Positions 32,591 through 34,752 of a stretch of DNA of 48,433 nucleotides are shown one piece after another. Made by a program: the position numbers and the translations under genes. Location: positions 1-48,433 of the forward strand of contig JAIXUV010000115.1 of the NCBI GenBank assembly GCA_027483345.1. Direction: 5' to 3'. The stretch's first letter is position 1. Each line of letters begins with the position of its first letter. The notes beneath the pieces were generated by a model. It was not told the DNA's origin. It searched no databases and was given only the letters and a program-made list of their open reading frames with translations. The stretch is from Verrucomicrobiales bacterium. Lineage in GTDB: Bacteria > Verrucomicrobiota > Verrucomicrobiia > Limisphaerales > UBA9464.

Positions 32591-32917
32591 TCAGGGGATG
32601 AACGAGCAGATATACTCGCAGATGCCGGACGTCACCTCGATGTCGAAACCGGACTTGGCCGGCACCTCGAAGGTCGCTCCCGCCGCGTAGGTTTCGGTCG
32701 TTGTGGAGCCGTCCAGCTTCACCACGCACGCCCCGGCAACGATCTCCATGATCTCCGCCTTGTCCGTTCCGAAGTGGAACTTCCCCGGGTAGATCAGGCC
32801 GAGGGTCTTCTTGCTGCCGTCGGGTTGCAGGATCGTGTGGGAAACCACCTTCCCGTCGAAATACACGTTGGCCTTGGCGACGGCGGTGACGTTGCGGAAC
32901 TCGGTCGGAATCGGCAT
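32591..32917 (-). CDS. ppnP: pyrimidine/purine nucleoside phosphorylase (PpnP)
   Basis: A small (108-residue) single-domain cupin-type protein of the PpnP/YaiE family, which cleaves many nucleosides with phosphate to give the base and ribose 1-phosphate. Family features include VYFDGKVVSHTI at 18-29, GEYTF-like GKFHFGT at 45-51, AEIMEIVAGA at 54-63, and YAAGATFEVPAKSGFDIEV at 77-95. ATG at 32917 fits the family length. It is convergent with the DsrEFH-like set and divergent from hisA, with 114 bases between starts. Confidence 0.9.
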   Translation of the reverse strand: MPIPTEFRNVTAVAKANVYFDGKVVSHTILQPDGSKKTLGLIYPGKFHFGTDKAEIMEIVAGACVVKLDGSTTTETYAAGATFEVPAKSGFDIEVTSGICEYICSFIP

Positions 32918-33031: not shown

Positions 33032-33811
33032 ATGACCTCCGTGTTCCGACCGTGCATCGATCTCCGGAACGGCAAGGTGGTCCAGATCGTCGGCGGGACG
33101 CTCACGGACTCCGGCGCCGGAACCCGGACCAACTTCGAATCCGACAAGCCCCCCGGCTGGTTCGCCGAACTCTACCGTCGCGACGGCCTCGTCGGCGGAC
33201 ATGTCATCGCCCTCGGCCCCGGCAACGAGTCCGCCGCCCGTGAAGCCCTCGAAGCCTGGCCCGGCGGCCTCCAGTACGGTGGCGGCGTGAACTTGGACAA
33301 CGCCGAGTCGTGGCTGGAGGCCGGCGCGGCGAAGGTGATCGTGACCTCCTGGGTGTTCCGGGAGGGCCGCCTCGACCTCGAACGCCTTCAAGACCTCGTC
33401 GCCCGCATCGGGCCCGACAGGCTGGTGCTCGACCTTTCCTGCCGCAAACGCGACGGACGCCATTGGGTGGTCACCGACCGATGGCAGAAGTTCACCGACC
33501 TCGAGGTGGACTCGGCAACCTGCTCGCGGTTGGCCGGATTCTGCTCCGAGTTCCTCGTCCACGCCGTGGACGTCGAGGGCCTCTGTCGCGGGATCGATGT
33601 CGACCTCGTACGCGACCTCGCCGCATGGAGTCCGATCGCGGCCACCTACGCCGGTGGCGCACATACGATCGGGGATCTCCGGACCGTCCATGAGGTCGGC
33701 GCCGGCCGGATCGGACTCACGATCGGCAGCGCGCTCGACATCTTCGGCGGCACGGGCGTGCGCTACTCCGACTGCGTCGCCTTCAACCAGGCGCACCGGA
33801 AGTCGCCTTGA
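33032..33811 (+). CDS. hisA: eukaryotic-type HisA isomerase (HIS6 type)
   Basis: This 259-residue (beta-alpha)8 enzyme of histidine synthesis converts ProFAR to PRFAR. It is the HIS6-type variant: CIDLRNGKVVQIVGGTLTD at the N-terminus, HVIALGPGNESAAREAL, VIVTSWVF, LDLSCRKRDGRHWVVTDRWQ and VDVEGLCRGID near the yeast HIS6 motifs, ending with SALDIFGG. The catalytic Asp near residue 9 (CIDL) and the Asp in LDLSCRK are present. ATG at 33032 has only a weak AGG upstream. No other his gene is in the window. Its stop overlaps the start of an EamA transporter (TTGA). Confidence 0.9.
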   Translation: MTSVFRPCIDLRNGKVVQIVGGTLTDSGAGTRTNFESDKPPGWFAELYRRDGLVGGHVIALGPGNESAAREALEAWPGGLQYGGGVNLDNAESWLEAGAAKVIVTSWVFREGRLDLERLQDLVARIGPDRLVLDLSCRKRDGRHWVVTDRWQKFTDLEVDSATCSRLAGFCSEFLVHAVDVEGLCRGIDVDLVRDLAAWSPIAATYAGGAHTIGDLRTVHEVGAGRIGLTIGSALDIFGGTGVRYSDCVAFNQAHRKSP

Positions 33812-34752
33812 GCGCGCCGGCTTCCATCGGCTCCCGTTCCTCCGGCTCCGGCGTGGTTCCATGGCTTTTGGCGGCCATCCTTCTCTGGGGCGCGAACAAC
33901 GTCTCACTGAAGCAGGTCCTCTCCCGTTGGCCACCGCTCTTCACCGGTTCCACCCGGTTCCTCGCCGCCGGCTTCCTGCTGCTGGCGATCGCCCGGAACC
34001 GAAGGCTCTTCGGTGACACGGTTCCCATGCCGCAAGGCCGGGGTGGCCGCCTCTGGATGGGCGGACTGCTGCTCGCGCTGTACGTGGCCGCCTGCAACTG
34101 GACCCTCCACTTTCTCCCAGCCTCCCACTTCGCCCTGCACATGGCGGTCTCACCCGCCTGGGCGCTCCTGCTCGAAGGCCGCGTCGAAGCCGCCGGCTCG
34201 GTCCGTCTCCGACGTTGGAGCGCCGTGTTCCTGACCTTCTGCGGCGTCGGCGTTTTGCTGCTGCCATCCTTGGGCTCGGACGGTTCCGGCGTCGGGCACC
34301 TGTTCGGAATCTCCACCGGACTGCTTTGGACGTTCTACAGCCGGGAATGCCGGCGCCTCGGAGAGGGCTGGTCCGGTGCCGCCGTCTCCGCGCACACCAT
34401 GTGGCGCGGCGGCCTGCTGCTCGTCCTCCCGGCCACCGTCGAGATCCTCCGGGCCCAGACCCTGCCGGTGATGGATCCGCGCACGCTGGGCTTCCACGTC
34501 TTCTGCATCACACTCGGCGGGATCGTGCCGTTCTCGCTGTGGACCCGATCACTCACCCGATGGCCCGTCTCGAAGGTGGCTCTCTTCGGAAACCTGATCC
34601 CGCTGACCACCGCGTCCTGGGACTTCCTCGTCTTCGGCACCCCCCTGTCCGCCACCTTCTGGGCGGCCACCGTGCTGATCCTCGGCGGCGTCGCCCTTTC
34701 CCAGTGGGAGATCCTCAAACAGGGCGTCCGCTGGTGGATCCCGGAGGAATAG
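33808..34752 (+). CDS. EamA/DMT-family transporter
   Basis: This 314-residue drug/metabolite transporter has about ten hydrophobic segments in two EamA repeats. Typical sequences are AAILLWGANNVSLKQ at the start, CNWTLHFLPASHFAL, and the second-repeat GGIVPFSLWTRSLTRWPVSKVALFGNLIPL. Family members export amino acids or other metabolites; the substrate here is unknown. The start is TTG at 33808, overlapping the hisA stop, which implies translational coupling. It converges on a sensor kinase gene 121 bases away. Confidence 0.85.
   Translation: MSAPASIGSRSSGSGVVPWLLAAILLWGANNVSLKQVLSRWPPLFTGSTRFLAAGFLLLAIARNRRLFGDTVPMPQGRGGRLWMGGLLLALYVAACNWTLHFLPASHFALHMAVSPAWALLLEGRVEAAGSVRLRRWSAVFLTFCGVGVLLLPSLGSDGSGVGHLFGISTGLLWTFYSRECRRLGEGWSGAAVSAHTMWRGGLLLVLPATVEILRAQTLPVMDPRTLGFHVFCITLGGIVPFSLWTRSLTRWPVSKVALFGNLIPLTTASWDFLVFGTPLSATFWAATVLILGGVALSQWEILKQGVRWWIPEE

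Follow-up and report, generated by a model that had tools for sequence, protein, structure and literature searches.

The window, by which we mean the whole stretch of DNA analysed here (48,433 nucleotides of contig JAIXUV010000115.1 from a Verrucomicrobiales bacterium), carries a hisA gene whose product resembles the histidine enzymes of yeast and plants. The gene and its immediate neighbours are as follows.

33032..33811, plus strand: hisA, predicted ProFAR isomerase of the hisA_euk (HIS6/HISN3) type, 259 amino acids (open reading frame, profile and structure comparison)
33808..34752, plus strand: EamA-family transporter gene, downstream neighbour (Pfam match)
32591..32914, minus strand: pyrimidine/purine nucleoside phosphorylase (Ppnp) gene, divergent upstream neighbour, outside the finding

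The hisA frame is open from ATG to TGA and comprises 259 codons and the stop. A TTG start candidate of the transporter gene lies at 33808 and overlaps the hisA stop by 4 bases; if this TTG is used, the overlap would suggest coupled translation, and co-transcription of the two genes is possible. No link of the transporter to histidine was seen. The surroundings further include genes for an S1-domain protein, DciA, an epimerase-family protein, a DsrE-family protein and a histidine kinase, and those flanking genes that match Pfam belong to bacterial families. The preliminary description of this DNA had called the gene isolated from other his genes, and indeed a tblastn search with the E. coli his proteins as queries found no other his gene within the window.

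Profile comparison with NCBIfam assigns the protein to hisA_euk (TIGR02129), the family of yeast HIS6 and plant HISN3. Its score of 359.4 bits exceeds the cut-off of 229.3 (E 1.2e-107) and the match covers the profile nearly end to end, the next best NCBIfam family following at E 2.2e-19. The cut-off of canonical HisA (TIGR00007) is missed by a wide distance (69.6 versus 228.95 bits), and the two best canonical models give 70 bits on this protein, their cut-offs being 243 and 229. When solved structures were compared by sequence, Medicago truncatula HISN3 (9fcf, E 1.3e-83) came first and Saccharomyces cerevisiae His6 (2agk, E 1.4e-71) second; no canonical HisA chain did better than E 8.4e-06. 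Given the values for hisA_euk, 9fcf and 2agk, the likeness to HIS6-type enzymes is far beyond chance. All motifs on which the HIS6 pattern had originally been recognised (QIVGGTLT, TNF, HVI-LGPGN, AAREAL, VIVTSW-F, DLSCRK-DG, VEGLC-GID and S-LDIFGG) are present in the translation, and the assignment to the HIS6 type rather than to the common bacterial HisA is borne out by the profile scores and by the quick tree described below.

In terms of identity, the protein is closer to the plant enzyme (56% to Medicago HISN3) than to the yeast enzyme (51% to His6), and shares 24% with E. coli HisA. It differs from the eukaryotic members of TIGR02129 in being bacterial. In the DLSC...W region it reads VVTDRWQ, as do the plant and most bacterial rows of our alignment, whereas yeast has VAMNKWQ; short insertions present in loops of plant HISN3 are absent from it. 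What it has in common with the family is the score, the near-full-length match, the fold and a set of type-specific invariant residues. In an alignment of 75 hisA_euk-type rows with 12 canonical rows, T105, D134, S136, H177, E182 and S233 are invariant in all 75 of the former and different in all 12 of the latter.

An AlphaFold2 model of the protein, for which 26 sequences from the window and the loci served as input, has a mean pLDDT of 92.3. The predicted fold is a (beta-alpha)8-barrel, that of the solved hisA_euk members. The model is closest to HISN3 (Z 41.0 for 9fcg and 39.8 for 9fcf, rmsd 1.5-1.9), followed by yeast His6 2agk (Z 34.2), while canonical HisA gives Z about 27 and PriA-type structures Z about 26-27.

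The alignment was also inspected for residues of the putative active site. D10 stands opposite E. coli D7 and Medicago D57 and is Asp in 74 of the 75 rows, the sole exception being the plant row, which was solved as the D57N variant; according to the structure titles, D57 is the residue altered in the HISN3 structures 9fcf and 9fcg with ProFAR/PRFAR. E182 is Glu in all 75 rows and its canonical counterpart (E. coli D176) is Asp in 12 of 12; the title of a Salmonella HisA-ProFAR complex names D176 as altered to Ala, numbering identical with that of E. coli being assumed. W151, the counterpart of E. coli W145, is Trp in all rows of both types. Judging from these correspondences, D10, E182 and W151 may well be catalytic. 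On the other hand, the position of E. coli D129 is occupied by Ser and that of D172 by Ala or Gly in all 75 rows, so catalytic details may differ from those of the canonical enzyme, and D134 is invariant in the hisA_euk type only. The protein shares its fold with canonical HisA, and its reaction is very probably the same too, although Glu provides one of the carboxylates and the site is otherwise rearranged in its details. In this step, the fourth of histidine synthesis, the HisA barrel would carry out the Amadori rearrangement of ProFAR to PRFAR, which would then be passed to a synthase formed by separate HisH and HisF.

We wondered if the bacterium possesses any other HisA. The source assembly (GCA_027483345.1) consists of 402 contigs, is 95% complete and has a contamination figure of 5.4%. 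Profile search detected one sequence above the hisA_euk cut-off. For canonical HisA, no entry from this genome was found among the matches listed; its best value on the canonical models (E 1.6e-38) is level with that of its own HisF (E 4.6e-39 on the canonical HisA model). Searching for the His_biosynth family retrieved HisF, the window HisA and a 53-residue stretch lacking an NCBIfam match, and nothing more. The search for a second HisA that the preliminary description had suggested thus returned none, with hisA_euk, canonical and His_biosynth profiles alike; with an assembly of this completeness, a canonical hisA could be missing from it. HisF (contig C301, above its cut-off) and HisH (C3) are encoded by separate genes, and an end piece of HisD lies at the edge of contig C172. 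Since all three sit on contigs other than that of hisA, the pathway is scattered in this assembly. A separate TrpF scoring above a cut-off is encoded on C92. In addition, a partial second PRAI (TrpF) match occurs on the hisF contig (G000:C301:3073-3435, minus strand).

These data bear on the possibility that the protein is a HisA paralogue with another role, for instance a PriA-like HisA/TrpF enzyme, whose fold it shares at the Z scores given above. We consider this highly unlikely, because the hisA-trpF model PriA (TIGR01919) yields 33.1 bits against a cut-off of 306.45, the genome has a TrpF of its own and no other HisA was found that would perform step four.

Genomic context in other bacteria provides further evidence for function. 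Scanning 84,980 species genomes with a sequence pattern gave at least 594 stretches (at least 575 confirmed as relatives), of which the best 80 were kept as named loci; three of these rows lack a phylum. Because they were ranked by match to the plant sequence, this sampling is biased away from relatives of the yeast enzyme. In four of the 80 loci (three Cohnella, one Paenibacillus) the gene lies in the order hisG-D-B-H-[hisA_euk-type hisA]-F-I, i.e. between hisH and hisF, the slot filled by canonical hisA in E. coli, which supports ProFAR isomerase function. The other 76 loci have no further his gene in flanks of up to 5 kb, some of them shorter; hisC was left out of all linkage counts due to cross-matching of aminotransferases. 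Within the source phylum, Verrucomicrobiota, none of 30 hisA_euk loci has another his gene within 1.5 kb, so linkage gives no support for function there, compared with nine of 15 canonical hisA loci of the comparison set that have one nearby.

Further, we examined the distribution of both HisA forms. In the source phylum, 160 of 387 sampled genomes carry the hisA_euk form above cut-off and 195 carry canonical HisA. None of the 160 was shown to have canonical HisA: the best canonical-model value among them, E 1.3e-45, is near the level of the HisF from the source genome. The two forms thus substitute for each other genome by genome. Both occur inside a single family in three cases (f4, f6 and f12), and even a single genus (g4) holds a genome with the hisA_euk form (G021), one with the canonical form (G301) and genomes with neither. 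This mixture within the genus and within single families points to repeated displacement. One genome (G157:C42) has two equal-scoring copies about 1.2 kb apart (48040-48789 and 49977-50726), apparently a recent tandem duplication or an assembly artefact.

Outside the source phylum, the 80 kept loci place the form in at least 14 named phyla. Of the 29 genomes behind named loci, 27 have no canonical HisA above cut-off, and both forms are above cut-off in two, both of them MAGs (G402 and G390). In the phylum of Roseburia porci, the single further phylum that was sampled, five of 249 genomes exceed the hisA_euk cut-off, and none of 14 named control genomes does. The form is therefore a main one in the source phylum and a minority one at least in that of R. 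porci, and the original view of a fungal and plant form rare in bacteria is not supported, given the 160 genomes of the source phylum and the 575 or more confirmed stretches. No description of this form in bacteria was found in titles and abstract openings, in a search that was thin on subscription journals, and a literature search for TIGR02129, IPR011858 or hisA_euk returned nothing.

Several occurrences were recorded in passing. Two loci (L059, L064) belong to Endozoicomonas and Parendozoicomonas, symbionts of marine animals. A fungal-like histidine pathway is reported from robust corals (PMC6214176). The phage record MT839235 ('Bacteriophage sp.', 4463 bases, unannotated) contains the form at 51% identity and is probably a bacterial fragment. 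Among six plasmid matches, a record of Paenibacillus cellulosilyticus carries the form, annotated hisA; the other five are at 28-29% identity, and one of them is annotated hisF.

To estimate evolutionary relationships, two trees were constructed. The quick tree (50 rows) includes canonical HisA and HisF and about half of the 42 loci and 30 genomes used in the careful tree. All of its 39 hisA_euk-type rows, yeast and plant included, fall on one side of a branch that separates them from canonical HisA and HisF (support 100). Hence the window protein groups with the yeast and plant rows and not inside ordinary bacterial HisA. For the careful tree (75 rows, unrooted), 42 named loci were taken from the 80, and 30 genomes from the 160 of the phylum that carry the form. 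Here the window protein belongs to a set of 26 rows (95/92), made up mostly of Verrucomicrobiota together with an Oceanospirillum row and yeast, and no tighter supported group surrounds it. Source-phylum rows cluster with rows of Kiritimatiellales and Victivallis; together with the closeness of the window protein to a Verrucomicrobiales row, this suggests that the sampled phylum is Verrucomicrobiota in the broad sense. The nearest rows to the window protein come from its own order and phylum, with 67% identity to a Verrucomicrobiales MAG.

The name of the family, like the identities of 51-56% to the yeast and Medicago enzymes, might suggest recent acquisition of the gene from a fungus or plant. 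This is very improbable in view of the nearest rows, the mostly verrucomicrobial 26-row set, the presence of the form in 160 genomes of the phylum and the bacterial families of the flanking genes. Contamination or a chimeric contig, by which hisA would be foreign to the source bacterium, is suggested by the 5.4% contamination figure; it too has little to recommend it, as the gene lies within a 48 kb contig among bacterial genes (S1-domain protein, DciA, Ppnp, EamA) and another genome of the same order (G295) has the same form (E 1.2e-110). We are thus highly confident that the gene is the bacterium's own and only HisA, a putative ProFAR to PRFAR isomerase from a branch that occurs in many bacterial groups and is named after its eukaryotic members. 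It was plausibly inherited within the phylum. The preliminary description had proposed an ancient exchange or an old bacterial branch: a branch well apart from canonical HisA is what the quick tree displays, but an exchange involving the window gene is not needed to account for it, as the rows closest to it come from its own order and phylum. 'Eukaryotic-type' HisA is best read as a branch of bacterial HisA.

The careful tree includes only two eukaryotic sequences, and these attach to different bacteria. Yeast His6, the longest end branch shown, forms one group with 19 bacterial rows (100/99), namely 18 of the source class and Oceanospirillum; the window protein adjoins this set and lies outside it. 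Medicago HISN3 groups with nine rows (98/94), among them Armatimonadota, Latescibacterota, Gemmatimonadota, Desulfobacter, Scalindua, Nitrospina and Pelagicoccus, apart from the window protein. A single clade of yeast and plant is rejected (log-likelihood 61 lower, p 0.0003, with one yeast and one plant sequence). In agreement with these separate affinities, the signature VAMN[RK]WQ (VAMDRWQ in one row) is confined to yeast and 17 of the 19 bacterial rows grouped with it; L032 and L134 lack it. VVMDRW of one outside row (L058) is picked up by a loose pattern only. Yeast is drawn inside the 19-row set (98/84), yet its nesting within bacterial rows is not established: a tree forced to unite these 19 bacterial rows to the exclusion of yeast is not rejected (p 0.32), and an unsupported branch (57/0) already sets the 18 rows of the source class apart. 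The tree is unrooted and therefore does not tell which way a transfer went. A 2024 paper on Medicago HISN3 reportedly argued for a non-cyanobacterial origin.

A second eukaryote-like feature of the pathway was detected in some carriers of the hisA_euk form.

L139:353-1942 (Desulfobacter latus): HisHF fusion, similar to yeast HIS7; others in G392, G410 and G412

The fusion was found in four of 45 genomes searched (Desulfobacter latus and MAGs of Desulfobulbus, Myxococcota and Nitrospirae), all four of which carry hisA_euk-type HisA. All four are full-length or nearly so, the Myxococcota copy being cut by a contig end; that of Desulfobacter aligns end to end with yeast HisHF (1jvn, E 1.4e-169). 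With the fusion in four of 45 genomes, a general pairing of the two was not seen. HisHF in two delta-proteobacteria was previously explained as a probable transfer from a eukaryote (PMC1963479, 2007). Since the hisA_euk form is broad in bacteria, the direction from bacterium to eukaryote is worth testing for HisHF. We tentatively put forward, as a possibility that we hold to be rather less than even, that 'eukaryotic-type' HisA is a bacterial invention acquired by eukaryotes at least twice: fungal HIS6 would derive from a Verrucomicrobiia-related lineage with the VAMN[RK]WQ signature and plant HISN3 from another bacterial group, and HisHF possibly had a similar history, which would reverse the direction proposed in 2007.

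The window gene itself is an ordinary HisA from an already known family, looks functional and is no exotic import; that the yeast and plant enzymes side with different bacteria emerged from the comparison, not from this gene. The gene explains how the source bacterium performs step four of histidine synthesis, a step that a search with canonical HisA only would wrongly report as missing. The near-exclusive occurrence of two HisA forms in one phylum, sometimes in one genus, is a clear-cut example of gene displacement, and with yeast and plant attaching separately, a bacterial origin of eukaryotic histidine genes becomes testable.
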